Positions 4,911 to 62,739 of a stretch of DNA of 64,000 bases are shown here, piece after piece; positions within the stretch are counted from its first letter, which is position 1, and the number at the start of each line of letters is the position of its first letter. Made by a program: the position numbers and the translations under genes. Source of the DNA: Olsenella sp. An188 (lineage in GTDB: Bacteria > Actinomycetota > Coriobacteriia > Coriobacteriales > Atopobiaceae). The notes under the pieces are model-generated. The model was not told where the DNA came from, did not search any database, and worked only from the letters and a program-made list of their open reading frames with translations. The stretch spans positions 186,001-250,000 of the forward strand of contig NZ_NFKF01000003.1 in NCBI RefSeq assembly GCF_002160255.1, given 5' to 3'.

Positions 4911-5534
4911 TCACTCCTTCGCTCGGTGCTGGGCGAGAAACGCCTCGAGGTGGCGCTCGACGAGGCGGCGCGCCTCCGGCCAGGGCGTGCCCTCGCAGAG
5001 CGCGAGGAACACGGGCCCGTGGAACTGGCGGGCCGCGAGGTCGACCTCGCAGGGGGAGAAGAGGCCGGCGTCGACGAGGCGCGAGAAGATCGCGCGCTGC
5101 AGCTCGAGCGGGCGCTCGACGAAGACGGTGCGGTAGAGCTCGTCGCAGCGAGGGTCCGCGTGGCGCGCGCCCTCGAGCACGCGGCGCAGGCGCACGATGC
5201 CGGCGTCCGCGAAGAAGGGCTCGTAGCTGGCGAGAACCACCTCGGTGAGCGCGGGACCGTCTGCGAGGTAGGCGCTCGCGTCGTCGGTGGGGTGGGCGAG
5301 GGCGCGCCGGGAGCGCAGCGCCTGCGTCAGGCGGTCGAGTTGGTGTTCCACCGCCGCGCCGAAGATGGCCTGCTTGCCGGGGAAGTGGCTGTAGAGCGAG
5401 GCCTCGCGCAGGCCCACCGCGGCCGCGACGTCGCGCATCGTCGTCGCGGCGTAGCCCTTCTCGGCAAACACCTCGAGGGCGCGCTCGCAGATGAGGCGCT
5501 TGGTGTCGCGCGTTGGCCCGGCCGGTCGTCCCAT
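4911..5534 (-). CDS. TetR-family transcriptional regulator
   Basis: 207 residues. The N-terminal helix-turn-helix (LICERALEVFAEKGYAATTMRDVAAAVGLREASLYSHFPGK) is classic TetR; the C-terminal half is the variable ligand domain. The start at 5534 (MGRPAG) has a GGGAGGAAGC site, unlike the more upstream frame-open codons. It precedes the flavodoxin gene with translational overlap or a two-base gap. The palindrome at 5556-5575, immediately upstream, is the probable operator and would also cover the divergent YjbR-TipAS promoter. The effector is unknown. Confidence 0.88.
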   Translation of the reverse strand: MGRPAGPTRDTKRLICERALEVFAEKGYAATTMRDVAAAVGLREASLYSHFPGKQAIFGAAVEHQLDRLTQALRSRRALAHPTDDASAYLADGPALTEVVLASYEPFFADAGIVRLRRVLEGARHADPRCDELYRTVFVERPLELQRAIFSRLVDAGLFSPCEVDLAARQFHGPVFLALCEGTPWPEARRLVERHLEAFLAQHRAKE

Positions 5535-5555
5535 GCTTCCTCCCGTGGTCGTCAA

Positions 5556-5575
5556 AACCTAGTATACGCTAGGTT
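5556..5575. promoter_or_regulatory. probable TetR operator in divergent promoter
   Basis: AACCTAG and CTAGGTT form a 7-bp inverted repeat around TATACG, 22 bp upstream of the TetR start and in the gap to the divergent gene at 5654. The internal TATAC also resembles a -10 box. Position and symmetry suit autorepression by the adjacent TetR protein. Confidence 0.6.
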
Positions 5576-5653
5576 TACGGTGACGGGCAAGGACGGGAGG
5601 GCGCTCTGATATGCTGGCCCCAGGCGAGTCGCGCGACGTGCGGAGGAGGGGCC

Positions 5654-6490
5654 ATGGACCTTGCGAGCATCGAGGAACGCCTGCTCTCGCGTCCCGGCGC
5701 CACCCGCGCCCTGCACGAGAAGTGGGGCTGGATGGTGTACTGGGTGGGCGGCCGGCAGTTTGCCTGCGAGTTCGAGGTGTCCCCGGACGCCAGGCCGCCC
5801 TACGCGGGGCGCCACCTGCTCTCGCTCAAGTGCGACCCCGACCGCATCCGGGAGCTCCGCGAGGAGCGGCCCGACGCGGTGCTGCCGGGCTACTACTCCG
5901 ACGGGCGGACGTGGATCTCCGTTGACCTGAGCTCGGACCTTCCGGAGGGCCTCGTGCTCGAGCTCTGCGACCTGAGCTACGACCTCGTCTTCTCCCGGCT
6001 GACCAAGCGCGCCCAGCGCGAGATCCTTGCCGAGAGCGCTGCCGCGGCGAAAGGGGTCGAGGACATGGACAAGCACGAGGCCTTCGAGGCGCTCAAGCGC
6101 CGGGAGATCGAGGAGAACGAGCGCGCGTACGGCCGCGAAGCGCGCGAGCGCTACGGCGACGACGCGGTGGACGCGGCAAACGAGCGCCTGTCCTCGCTTT
6201 CTCGCGACGAGTGGGGCGAGAAAGGCCAGCTCGAGCAGGCCATCAAGGAGCAGCTGCGCGCTGCCATGGCGACGGGCGACCCGGCGGGCGACGCTGCCCG
6301 CGAGCTCGCGCAGATGCACGAGCGCTGGATTCGCCTGCACTGGGGAGAGGGGCACTACTCGCGCGAGGCGCATCGCGGTCTCGCGCAGATGTATCTTGCG
6401 GACGACCGCTTTCGCGCGTACTACGATGAGGCGGCGGGCGAGGGTGCGACGGAGTTTCTGGTCGCCGCGCTCGAGTCATACCTGGCGTAG
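5654..6490 (+). CDS. MmcQ/YjbR domain fused to TipAS antibiotic-recognition domain
   Basis: A 278-residue fusion. Residues about 1-118 are MmcQ/YjbR-like (CyaY-like fold): FACEFEVSPDARPPYAGRHL, then CDPDRIRELREERPDAVLPGY and W(I)SVDLSSDLPEGLVLELCDLSYDLV. Residues about 138-278 match TipAS, the all-helical thiopeptide-binding domain of TipA regulators (EVDAA-type linker, ERLSSLSRDEW, ARELAQMHERWIRLHW, YLADDRFRAYYDEAAGEGA). TipAS normally follows a MerR winged helix; here the partner is YjbR. It starts 11 bases after a GGAGG and is divergent from TetR-flavodoxin. Role inferred: drug binding or sensing, with unknown output. Confidence 0.82.
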   Translation: MDLASIEERLLSRPGATRALHEKWGWMVYWVGGRQFACEFEVSPDARPPYAGRHLLSLKCDPDRIRELREERPDAVLPGYYSDGRTWISVDLSSDLPEGLVLELCDLSYDLVFSRLTKRAQREILAESAAAAKGVEDMDKHEAFEALKRREIEENERAYGREARERYGDDAVDAANERLSSLSRDEWGEKGQLEQAIKEQLRAAMATGDPAGDAARELAQMHERWIRLHWGEGHYSREAHRGLAQMYLADDRFRAYYDEAAGEGATEFLVAALESYLA

Positions 6491-6507
6491 CCGGCGGGAG
6501 GGGCCTC

Positions 6508-6573
6508 ATGGGCGAGAAGGGCGTGCAGCTCACCAACTTCCTCATGGAGAAGGACCTGGGCACTGGGCGGTAG
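6508..6573 (+). CDS. possible 21-residue peptide (doubtful)
   Basis: ATG 6508 follows GGGAGGGG by a few bases and opens MGEKGVQLTNFLMEKDLGTGR before a stop at 6571. It is too short to recognise. The GEK at its start is the GGCGAGAAG word again. It may be the 5' fragment of a lost gene or chance. Confidence 0.2.
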   Translation: MGEKGVQLTNFLMEKDLGTGR

Positions 6574-6601
6574 GCAGGTGCCCAGGCCCGCACCCCTCTC
6601 G

Positions 6602-57924: not shown

Positions 57925-57953
57925 GCGCCCCCGTACCCGCGGGGGCGCCTTTT
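57925..57953 (+). terminator. rho-independent terminator after DegV
   Basis: GCGCCCCCG (57925-57933) pairs with CGGGGGCGC (57940-57948) around a 6-nt loop, followed by CTTTT. It ends the hpf-DegV unit. A TATTAT box at 57914 just before could be a promoter for the next gene, in which case this hairpin would act as an attenuator. Confidence 0.8.
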
Positions 57954-57984
57954 GGGAAAAGTTGCGAAAGGAAACGCACACGAC

Positions 57985-59016
57985 ATGACCACCCACATCC
58001 GCAAGGTCGCCCTCGTCGGCACCGGCATCATGGGCGCCGCGATCGCCTCCCACATCCTCGACGCCGGGTTCGACCTCACCGTCCACAACCGCACGCGCGA
58101 GAAGGCCGAGGCGCTTCTCGCCAGGGGAGCCCACTGGGCCGACAGCCCCGCCGAGGCCGCGGCGGACGCCGACGTCGTCCTCACGATGGTCGGCTACCCC
58201 TCCGAGGTCGAGGACGTCTACCTGGCCACCGACGGGCTCATCCGCACCGCCAAGAAGGGTGCCTGGCTCATCGACCTCACCACGAGCTCCCCGCAGCTCG
58301 CCCGCGACATCCACGACGCCGCCGAGGTCGAGGACAAGCACGCCTTCGACTGCCCCGTCACGGGCGGCGAGCAGGGGGCGCTCGACGGCACCCTCACGCT
58401 CATCGTCGGCGCGGCCGAGAAGGACGTCGCCCCGGTGCTGCCCCTGCTCGAGTGCTTCTCCGCGCGCCGCTTCTACTTCGACGTTCCGGGCGGCGGCCAG
58501 GCGGCCAAGCTCTGCAACCAGGTGAGCCTCGCCTCGTGCATGGTCGGCTACGCCGACGCCCTCGCCCTCGCGGAGCAGTCCGGGATCGACCCCGAGCGCG
58601 TGCTCGAGGTCATGGCGAGCGGCACCGGCGGCTCGGGCGCGTCGGCCACGCTCGCGCCCAAGTCCCTCGCCGGCGACTACCGCCCCGGCTTCATGGCCGA
58701 GCACCTGCGCAAGGACATCGCGCTGGCGCTGCAGCGCTCCGAGGAGCTCGACATCACGCTGCCCGGCGCCGAGACCGCCTTCACGCTCTTCGACATGCTC
58801 TGCCAGATCGGCGGCGCGCGCATGGGCACCCAGGCGCTGACGCTGCTCTACCGCGAGGAGGCCGACTGCGTGGCCGCCGGCCTCGACTGGTCGCTGCTCG
58901 AGCGCGACGAGGACGAGCACGAGTGCGGCTGCGGCCACGACCACGGCGAGGGCCACGAGTGCCACTGCGGCCACGACCACGGCGCCGACCACGAGTGCCA
59001 CTGCCACGACCACTAG
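57985..59016 (+). CDS. 3-hydroxyisobutyrate-dehydrogenase-like enzyme with His/Cys metal-binding tail
   Basis: 343 residues. Residues 1-300 are a beta-hydroxyacid dehydrogenase: VALVGTGIMGAAIASHILDAG (NAD(P) site), DCPVTGGEQGALDGTLTL (substrate loop), GGGQAAKLCNQV with the catalytic Lys, and HLRKDIALAL. Residues about 306-343 are unrelated: two near repeats of ECGCGHDHGEGH and a final ECHCHDH, dense in His, Cys and Asp. This should bind Zn, Ni or Cu. Such tails are known on metallochaperones but not usual in this family. ATG 57985 follows AAAGGAAA. Substrate unknown. Confidence 0.88.
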   Translation: MTTHIRKVALVGTGIMGAAIASHILDAGFDLTVHNRTREKAEALLARGAHWADSPAEAAADADVVLTMVGYPSEVEDVYLATDGLIRTAKKGAWLIDLTTSSPQLARDIHDAAEVEDKHAFDCPVTGGEQGALDGTLTLIVGAAEKDVAPVLPLLECFSARRFYFDVPGGGQAAKLCNQVSLASCMVGYADALALAEQSGIDPERVLEVMASGTGGSGASATLAPKSLAGDYRPGFMAEHLRKDIALALQRSEELDITLPGAETAFTLFDMLCQIGGARMGTQALTLLYREEADCVAAGLDWSLLERDEDEHECGCGHDHGEGHECHCGHDHGADHECHCHDH

Positions 59017-59053: not shown

Positions 59054-59836
59054 TTGAACGGTAACGACATGCCCCAGAGCTCCATCGCGGTGCTCATCGA
59101 CTTCGAGAACCTCGCGCTCGGCACCGGCCGGCGCAAGCGCAACGGCCACCAGGAGCCGGGCCCGCTGCCCGACGTCAAGCTCATCCTCGAGCGCCTCGTC
59201 GACAAGGGCCGCATCACGGCCAAGCGCGCCTACTGCGACTGGCAGCGCTTCTCCGACGCCGTGACGCCCCTGCACGAGCTCGGCATCGAGCTCATAGAGA
59301 TCCCCGACCGCGCCTTCACCGGCAAGAACTCGGCCGACATCCGCCTTGCCGTGGACGCGATGGAGATCTGCCTCACGAAGGACCACATCGACACCTTCGC
59401 CATCCTCTCCGGCGACTCGGACTTCTCGCCGCTCGTCTCCAAGCTCAAGGAGTTCGGCAAGACGGTGATCGGCGTGGGCATGAAGGAGGCCACGAGCTCG
59501 CTTCTGACCGAGGTCTGCGACGAGTTCATCTTCTACGAGGACATCAGGAGCTCCGGCGGCATCCCCGACTACGCCGCCAAGGTGCCCAAGGACCGCCACG
59601 AGTGCTACCAGCTGCTCTTCGAGACCATCGACGCGCTGCAGCGCGAGAGCGACAGCTTCATCCTCGCCTCGCGCCTGAAGGACACGATGAAGCGCAAGCG
59701 CCCGCAGTTCTCCGAGGGCAGCTACGGCTACCGCTCGTTCACGGCGCTTTTGCGCGAGGCGGCAAAGCTCGGATTCATCGAGATTCACCAGGACCCCAAG
59801 AGCGGCACGGCCGTGGTCGACGGGTTCTGCGAGTAG
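59054..59836 (+). CDS. NYN-domain RNase with LOTUS/OST-HTH domain
   Basis: 260 residues from TTG 59054 (AAGGAG at suitable distance) or 255 from ATG 59069. Residues about 10-165 are a NYN/PIN-like nuclease: acidic sites in VLIDFENLAL, KNSADIRLAVDAMEI and ILSGDSDFSPLV. The C-terminal stretch (ECYQLLFETIDALQRESD, FSEGSYGYRSFTALLREAAKLGFIEI) matches the LOTUS/OST-HTH RNA-binding fold. LabA/DUF88 family. Probably RNA-cleaving. The next gene is 13 bp downstream, same strand. Confidence 0.87.
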   Translation: MNGNDMPQSSIAVLIDFENLALGTGRRKRNGHQEPGPLPDVKLILERLVDKGRITAKRAYCDWQRFSDAVTPLHELGIELIEIPDRAFTGKNSADIRLAVDAMEICLTKDHIDTFAILSGDSDFSPLVSKLKEFGKTVIGVGMKEATSSLLTEVCDEFIFYEDIRSSGGIPDYAAKVPKDRHECYQLLFETIDALQRESDSFILASRLKDTMKRKRPQFSEGSYGYRSFTALLREAAKLGFIEIHQDPKSGTAVVDGFCE

Positions 59837-61413: not shown

Positions 61414-62610
61414 GTGCGCGTGGCGATAAGCGCCTGCCTGCTCGGCGCGCCGGTGCGCTACGACGGCGGGTCCAAGCCGGTTCCCGAGGTGATCGAGCTG
61501 GCCGGGAAGGAGGGCGTCGAGGTCCTGCGGGTGTGCCCCGAGACCGCGAGCGGCCTTCCCGTCCCGCGCCCTCCGGCCGAGCAGCGCGGCGGGCGCGTCC
61601 TTCTCGCCGACGGGCGGGACGTGACCGAGGAGTTTGCCCTGGGCTCGCGGCTCTGCGGGGACGACGTCGTCCGCTCGGGGGCGCGTTTGGCGGTGCTCAA
61701 GGCAAAGAGCCCCTCGTGCGGGGTGGGTCTGGTCTACGATGGAACCTACTCTGGAAGACTCGTTGCGGGCCAGGGCGTCTTTGCGGCGCGGCTCGATGAG
61801 GAGGGGATCTGCGTGGTCACCGAGGACACCGTGAGGGCGTGCAAGCCGAGCGTCGAGCACCCCGTCGCCATCGTCTTGGGAAGCGGCCTGGGCCACCTGG
61901 GGACGCTCGTGCGGCCGGTCCGTCGCATCGACTACCGTGACATCGAGGGCTTCCCGCTCTCGGCGCGGCCCGTGGCGGGACACAGCTTCGAGGCCACGGT
62001 CGGCACGATCGACGACGTGCCCGTGGTCGTCTACCCCGGGCGCATCCACCTCTACCAGGGCTACTCCGCCGCCGAGGTGACCTCGCTCGTGCGCCACGCT
62101 CACCACCTGGGCTGCCGCGACATCGTCTTTGCCTGCGCCACGGGCGCGGTGCCGGGCATGGCGCACGTGGGCCTGGGCATCCTCACGGACCAGATCAACC
62201 TCACCGGGCGCAACCCGCTCGCGGAGTGGGACGGACTGCGCGACGTGGAGAGCCCCTTCGTGGACATGAACGAGGCGTACTCCCCCTACCTGCGCACGAT
62301 CGCGCGCGGCGTGGCCGACGACCTGGGCGTGGCCGTGGAGGAGGGCGTCTACGCGGGCGTGCTCGGCCCGTGCTTCGAGACCCCGGCCGAGGTGGCCGCG
62401 CTGCGCACGCTCGGCGTCTCCTACGTGGGCATGAGCACGGTGAACGAGGTCATCATGGCCAAGGCGCTCGGCATGCACGTACTTGGCCTCACGCTCGCGG
62501 CCAACGAGTCCGGCGCGCCGTCGGTGACCCACGAGACCGTCCTGACCGAGGCTGAGAGGCACGCGGAGGACTTCGAGCGGCTCGTCCGCGGGGTGCTGCG
62601 CCTGCTGTAA
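61414..62610 (+). CDS. DUF523 domain fused to purine nucleoside phosphorylase
   Basis: 398 residues. Residues 1-140 are DUF523 (AISACLLGAPVRYDGGSK, VCPETASGLPVPRPP, LKAKSPSCGVGLVYDGTYSG), with four conserved Cys suggesting a metal or Fe-S site. Residues about 148-398 are a trimeric purine nucleoside phosphorylase (AIVLGSGLGHL; VVYPGRIHLYQGYS; FETPAEVAALRTLGVSYVGMSTVNEVIMA; TLAANESG). It cleaves inosine or guanosine to base plus ribose-1-phosphate. The combination in one chain is unusual; DUF523 may modulate or supply an activity linked to nucleosides. GTG 61414. Confidence 0.88.
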   Translation: MRVAISACLLGAPVRYDGGSKPVPEVIELAGKEGVEVLRVCPETASGLPVPRPPAEQRGGRVLLADGRDVTEEFALGSRLCGDDVVRSGARLAVLKAKSPSCGVGLVYDGTYSGRLVAGQGVFAARLDEEGICVVTEDTVRACKPSVEHPVAIVLGSGLGHLGTLVRPVRRIDYRDIEGFPLSARPVAGHSFEATVGTIDDVPVVVYPGRIHLYQGYSAAEVTSLVRHAHHLGCRDIVFACATGAVPGMAHVGLGILTDQINLTGRNPLAEWDGLRDVESPFVDMNEAYSPYLRTIARGVADDLGVAVEEGVYAGVLGPCFETPAEVAALRTLGVSYVGMSTVNEVIMAKALGMHVLGLTLAANESGAPSVTHETVLTEAERHAEDFERLVRGVLRLL

Positions 62611-62663: not shown

Positions 62664-62739
62664 GCCAGCTTAGCTCAGTTGGTAGAGCACCGCTCTCGTA
62701 AAGCGGGGGTCACCAGTTCGAGTCTGGTAGCTGGCTCCA
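62664..62739 (+). tRNA. tRNA-Thr(CGU)
   Basis: 76 nt folding as a cloverleaf: acceptor GCCAGCT/AGCTGGC, D arm GCTC...GAGC, anticodon stem CCGCT/AGCGG with loop CTCGTAA (anticodon CGT, 62697-62699), T arm with GTTCGAGTC, discriminator T and encoded CCA (62737-62739). It reads ACG codons, frequent in this high-G+C DNA. Confidence 0.95.

Follow-up and report, generated by a model that had tools for sequence, protein, structure and literature searches.

Within the stretch of DNA analysed here (the window, 64,000 nucleotides), a single open reading frame carries two enzyme domains (Table 1). Its N-terminal half matches the Pfam family PF04463, 2-thiouracil desulfurase (TudS, formerly DUF523), with E 2e-37, and its C-terminal half matches PF01048 (PNP_UDP_1) with E 2.7e-35, as expected from the preliminary description, which had read the frame as a fusion of DUF523 to a purine nucleoside phosphorylase (PNP). 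GC content is 0.72 in the TudS half and 0.71 in the PNP half, and third-position GC is 0.88 and 0.96, respectively. The closest PDB sequence matches of the protein are PNPs; the N-terminal half alone matches only TudS (6Z92 and four further entries). An AlphaFold model of the whole fusion protein reaches a pLDDT of 92.6 and a pTM of 0.91; the structure-search rows listed (Foldseek and VIA) concern the PNP half only, and the TudS half is supported by sequence and pLDDT. Because the stop codon of the upstream 297-residue gene lies 9 bases ahead of the start of the fusion, the two genes probably form one transcript. Farther upstream on the same strand lie a gene for an NYN-domain protein (59054-59836), which has an OST-HTH/LOTUS match slightly below cut-off, and one for a 3-hydroxyisobutyrate-dehydrogenase-like protein (57952-59016), whose His/Cys-rich C-terminal tail of about 35 residues has a metal-binding-like look.

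Table 1. Features of the TudS-PNP locus (window coordinates).
Feature	Position	Strand	Details
TudS-PNP fusion gene	61414..62610	+	398 aa, GTG start, TAA stop
TudS (ex-DUF523) desulfidase domain, residues 3-138	61420..61827	+	Pfam PF04463, alignment to PDB 6Z92 chain
Purine nucleoside phosphorylase domain, residues 150-396	61861..62601	+	Pfam PF01048, NCBIfam PRK08202, residue tables, AlphaFold model, PDB matches
Upstream gene, 297 aa	60511..61404	+	No Pfam match at E 0.1; conserved locus neighbour
tRNA-Thr(CGT), directly downstream of the fusion	62664..62739	+	Outside the enzyme; end-of-locus marker

We then sought the same architecture in other genomes, counting a fusion as full-length when a tblastn row ran from residue 5 or earlier to residue 393 or later without a stop. 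By this measure at least 94 of 396 Coriobacteriia genomes encode the one-frame fusion, and an assembly accident or an error of one genome was accordingly rejected; a PF04463 match of any kind is present in 250 of the 396. In the window's family (f1) at least 83 of 111 genomes have the fusion, including 26 of 26 in the window's genus, as do at least 11 of the 61 genomes of a second family (f3), with none in the other 224 genomes among the matches listed, which extend down to about E 5e-52. The family totals and the 94 fusions were counted by hand, and the 94 leave aside partial or broken fusions in G042, G217 and G366. The copy in G042 (L124), whose genome is rated 99% complete, loses its reading frame around residue 240, either truly or through a sequencing error. 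A sample of the phylum (396 genomes, about 35 of them Coriobacteriia already covered) likewise gave full-length matches only in f1 and f3 among the matches listed. Five genomes whose matches reach the TudS region or contain stops (G673, G724, G464, G145 and G095) were rejected as fusions, each matching PNP but not TudS. In another collection, all 32 named loci (L034-L065) hold TudS and PNP domains in a single frame, and 31 of these 32 also hold a homologue of the NYN-domain protein. Named relatives bear the titles Olsenella, Thermophilibacter, Lancefieldella and Atopobiaceae; because those included in the PNP tree group among f1 rows, f1 is taken to be Atopobiaceae, though one such row is titled Coriobacteriaceae. 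The 88 fusion loci assembled for residue and neighbourhood comparison include duplicates (the window gene three times, and named loci that repeat species already sampled) and reduce to 61 distinct proteins, two of which are incomplete (L124, and L171 with a short TudS end) and leave single gaps in the residue counts given below.

The preliminary description treated DUF523 as a domain of unknown function, a label that is out of date: PF04463 is now named 2-thiouracil desulfurase, and the available text of PMC10611767 describes TudS as a [4Fe-4S] desulfidase whose substrates include 2- and 4-thiouracil, 4-thiouridine and 4-thio-UTP, with 4-thio-UMP the best. According to the same text, the cluster is bound by Cys10, Cys43 and Cys104, catalysis is assisted by Glu45, Ser101 and Ser103, and Arg17 touches the nucleotide phosphate in docking. 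The fused domain scores 128.8 bits against PF04463 (cut-off 34.7) over profile positions 1-140 of 141. Its C8, C41, C102, E43, S99 and S101 align with C10, C43, C104, E45, S101 and S103 of TudS_A, and R15 is present at the TudS arginine position in the alignment to the 6Z92 chain. Across the 61 distinct fusions, C8, S99 and C102 are present in all, C41, E43 and R15 in 60, each with one gap, and S101 in 59. The fused domain and TudS (6Z92, PF04463) are thus alike in domain length, the three cysteine ligands, the glutamate, two serines and the arginine; they differ in that the proteins studied in PMC10611767, as far as its available text goes, are single-domain, whereas the window protein joins TudS to a PNP. 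By analogy with the studied enzymes, the fused TudS would hold a [4Fe-4S] cluster on its three cysteines with one iron open; this iron would take the sulfur of a thiolated pyrimidine, best from 4-thio-UMP and less well from 4-thiouridine or 4-thiouracil, and water, aided by glutamate and serine, would substitute for the sulfur to give the plain uracil compound and sulfide. Elsewhere in the family, C. difficile TudS expressed in S. aureus relieves 4-thiouracil toxicity (available text of PMC12210855), and Desulfosarcina sp. BuS5 has a DUF523 protein predicted to be a selenoprotein (available text of PMC12013277).

Judged from its sequence, the C-terminal domain is a trimeric-type PNP, and a trimer is its presumed assembly. 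The fusion scores 228.8 bits against NCBIfam PRK08202 (NF006054; cut-off 218), 196.6 bits against TIGR01697, just below the cut-off of 197.1, and far below the cut-offs of TIGR01700, TIGR01698 and TIGR01699. Residues 145-397 of the AlphaFold model superpose on solved PNPs with Z of 31-34 and rmsd of 1.8-2.2 (50 matches listed). At its phosphate, ribose and purine sites the window protein carries S157, R210, H212, Y214, E322, M340, S341, N364 and H373, which we take to be S33, R84, H86, Y88, E201, M219, S220, N243 and H257 of human PNP; E322 and N364 would then be E201 and N243, the pair that reads 6-oxopurines. R210, H212 and Y214 are present in 61 of the 61 distinct fusions, E322 and S341 in 60, and N364 and H373 in 59; the position of human M219 is Met in 56, and that of human S33 is Ser in 45 and Thr in 16. 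An altered purine pair that had lost Asn243 was considered and rejected, the alignment showing this residue kept. The domain resembles the known trimeric PNPs (PunA/XapA type; PRK08202; PDB 6TK9, 8SWU, 4M1E and 3LA8) in predicted fold and active-site residues, and differs from them in its added N-terminal TudS and at the position of human Asn115, where the fusions, like the f1 and f3 proteins that have PNP alone, carry Cys, Ala or Gly; the remaining PNPs compared have Asn there, L160 excepted.

The fusion is the sole TudS and the sole PNP found in the window genome. Pfam identifies one PF04463 protein there, the fusion, and two with a PF01048 match: the fusion again, plus a 254-residue MTA/SAH nucleosidase on another contig (PRK05584, 220.5 bits; cut-off 169). 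Because the genome, like 383 of the 396 Coriobacteriia genomes, encodes a ThiI-domain match, this protein is a likely internal source of 4-thiouridine; ThiI also works in thiamin synthesis, and its presence alone is no proof of s4U.

Given what is observed in the protein, namely both domains, their conserved catalytic residues and the predicted PNP fold, we propose, at a probability of roughly 0.6, that TudS-PNP is a bifunctional nucleoside-salvage enzyme whose two catalytic centres run separate, parallel reactions. Alongside desulfuration by TudS, the PNP domain would carry out the phosphorolysis of inosine- and guanosine-type nucleosides and would supply the cell's PNP activity. Both domains would act in parallel on compounds from degraded RNA and from the environment, not in series on a single molecule, and we would expect no channelling between them; the gain from fusion would lie in joint expression in equal amounts. 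Because TudS prefers nucleotides and PNP takes nucleosides, no shared purpose other than salvage readily suggests itself.

The covalent joining of the domains, and the retention of the fusion in most f1 genomes, would also suit an enzyme that works sequentially, in which thiolated purine nucleosides (6-thioguanosine, 6-thioinosine) are desulfurated by TudS and cleaved by PNP, or the reverse. PNPs accept 6-thiopurine nucleosides, which counts in favour of such a sequence, and we know of no TudS that acts on purines, which counts against it; our literature search, which covered few subscription papers, found no paper on TudS with purines or on a desulfidase linked with thiopurines. The main text of PMC10611767 contains no words starting with purine, thioguan-, mercapto-, thioinosine or 6-thio, and purines were seemingly not tried there. 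The fused TudS retains the arginine that, in the docking described in the available text of PMC10611767, contacts the 5'-phosphate of 4-thio-UMP, and TudS and PNP have each been lost without the other, both of which argue against sequential action; we regard it as improbable.

A second possibility is that the PNP half has been re-aimed at thiopyrimidines, cleaving 4-thiouridine to 4-thiouracil that TudS would convert to uracil. The altered Asn115 position of the fused clade is in keeping with this, as is the arrangement in a third family (f9), in which both genomes examined encode tudS and a pnp-like gene as separate, adjoining genes on one strand (L160/L211, and L210 at 5037-6593, its PNP-like protein at 5763-6593). 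The f9 PNP-like proteins keep the phosphate-site residues, lack the purine pair (Glu replaced by Leu, and Asn by Ser or His) and reach 199 and 173 bits with PRK08202, whose cut-off is 218. Two genomes are a slim basis, but in no other case here does a TudS neighbour of the phosphorylase type look re-aimed or decayed. One f9 genome, G368, encodes a canonical PNP at a separate locus (L224, 303.5 bits). In the other, G373, no canonical PNP was found, its remaining PF01048 proteins being a nucleosidase and an MTA phosphorylase; because of this the altered protein there need not be a spare copy, a point against the shift. Within the fusions themselves the purine Glu is kept in 60 of 61 and the Asn in 59, and the window's fusion is the one PNP found in its genome. 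Because the purine pair is retained, we consider a thiopyrimidine shift of the fused PNP very improbable. There is a slender chance that the fused and the adjoining genes reflect one theme, a dedicated thionucleoside-clearing unit in which both enzymes act on the same sulfur-bearing nucleoside, a thiopurine in the fusion and possibly a thiopyrimidine in f9; if so, the substrates in gut bacteria could include thiopurine drugs.

To place the fusion in the history of its two families, we built a tree of each domain. The PNP tree holds 63 rows (100 distinct domains in 69 clusters at 88% identity, minus six clostridial rows). A branch (91/90, not starred) separates all 46 f1 and f3 rows, fused or not, from the rest. 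The fused label requires six changes on this tree, of which the starred branches force at least four; these may represent one gain and five losses. The TudS tree (98 of 160 rows, clustered at 80%; 137 columns, many weak forks, a quick method) places 36 of 36 PNP-fused rows in one group (SH-aLRT 94, not starred), which also contains the TudS-only genus g5 and the proteins of g15; free-standing TudS proteins of f3 form a separate group (97, starred). A homologue of the window's upstream gene lies at 87 of the 88 fusion loci, duplicates counted (L141 is the exception), at 16 of 16 f1 and f3 loci with PNP alone, and at 4 of 4 g5 and 2 of 2 g15 TudS loci examined, and is absent from all 25 other PNP loci. 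This pattern fits a single fusion event at a syntenic locus, from which one or the other half was later lost.

These losses run in both directions. TudS is missing and PNP kept in nine f1 genomes (g13) and seven f3 genomes. At the g5 locus TudS is retained without PNP, and in g15 (L162 and L163) TudS is followed in frame by a remnant of about 110 PNP residues that has no Pfam match and is alike in the two genomes; this remnant may be decaying or reused. In the f3 genome G114 (L133) the fused PNP lacks the E, N and H residues, which fits active-site decay. Separate canonical PNPs (PRK08202, 320-338 bits) occur elsewhere in four of five g5 genomes, which is what would be expected if the fused PNP is a housekeeping enzyme. 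With tblastn at E 1e-10, no canonical PNP was found in the fifth g5 genome (G096), no trimeric PNP in any of three g15 genomes, and none in G114 besides its decayed copy. The named PF01048 proteins of the g15 genomes and G114 are MTA/SAH nucleosidases, and several others are unnamed; unless one of the unnamed proteins serves, the g15 lineage does without a trimeric PNP, and likewise G114 and G096. A TudS is present elsewhere in six of the seven PNP-only f3 genomes and in none of the nine PNP-only f1 genomes. A lost PNP half is thus often, not always, replaced, and the TudS and PNP functions vary independently.

The ease with which the halves separate (PNP alone at 16 f1 and f3 loci, TudS alone in g5, a decayed tail in g15, and G114) counts against the bifunctional reading, and raises the alternative that two adjacent salvage genes merged once by a neutral or expression-level accident, with selection acting on each domain singly. 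Fission and decay in several lineages, the separate adjoining tudS and pnp-like genes of f9, the replacement of a lost half by a separate gene (PNP in g5, TudS in six of seven PNP-only f3 genomes) and the fusion of TudS to other partners all favour such an accident. We nonetheless judge it unlikely, the fused form being retained in at least 83 of 111 f1 genomes and in all 26 of the window's genus, and keep the bifunctional salvage enzyme as our preferred interpretation.

TudS is joined to further domains in other proteins: to GNAT at four loci (L009, L015, L078 and L138) and to DUF5662 at two (L006 and L010). Because of these other partners, and because halves have been lost or have decayed singly, the fusion partner alone is no guide to TudS function and the Rosetta-stone argument is weak. 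The preliminary description had used this argument to propose that DUF523 acts on or near nucleosides; the direction was right, since TudS desulfurates thiouridine compounds (available text of PMC10611767), and the point was already published. The TudS-GNAT arrangement occurs both in Coriobacteriia and in Lachnospiraceae, where the GNAT is a different one, and tails that look similar by eye are present at L020, L031, L033 and L079. DUF5662 is a family of unknown function and a candidate for a thionucleotide-related role; tails that by eye resemble those of L006 and L010 lie behind TudS at L004 and L008.

The available text of PMC11417400 gives 58.9% of TudS-family sequences as single-domain and 40.1% as fused to DUF1722, and describes RudS (TudS-DUF1722) as stripping s4U from tRNA. 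RudS and the window protein both join TudS to a second domain; they differ in that the second domain of RudS is DUF1722, which the available text of PMC11417400 credits with tRNA targeting, whereas that of the window protein is an enzyme for free nucleosides. Pfam matches at E 0.001 include no DUF1722 in the fusion, PF01048 being the only other domain. No paper on a TudS-PNP fusion was found in a title- and abstract-level search that covered few subscription papers. TudS-PNP is a new architecture of known enzymes, the thionucleoside role of DUF523 having been published before. Occurring in a group of anaerobic bacteria, it extends the TudS family by a pairing of two enzymes, links sulfur removal from RNA building blocks with general nucleoside salvage, and makes purine desulfuration by TudS an easily tested question. 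If TudS does desulfurate purines, this would bear on the fate of thiopurines in such bacteria; if it does not, the fusion would be a neat example of a pair of salvage enzymes linked for the sake of their expression.

The neighbourhoods of free-standing DUF523 genes, in which the preliminary description had expected links to nucleoside genes, give a mixed answer. In a small sample of nine free-standing tudS genes outside Coriobacteriia, with 10 neighbours, two neighbours, both from Brevibacillus, belong to the uridine-kinase family, six fall in families unrelated to nucleosides, and the last two lack any Pfam match at E 1e-5. A wider Pfam scan took in 121 open reading frames of 90 to 900 codons at 14 of 16 available tudS loci from outside Coriobacteriia (one a GNAT fusion, the other 13 stand-alone), omitting L079 and L089; its gene finding was rough and recovered just 11 of these 14 tudS genes. 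Among the 25 of 137 families listed, with singletons mostly outside the list, are two xanthine/uracil permeases and two members of the uridine-kinase family, and no PNP. In two Brevibacillus species (L086, 3661-4965; L088, 4015-4974) a uridine-kinase-family gene lies directly upstream of a free-standing tudS, an adjacency in keeping with 4-thio-UMP as the substrate.
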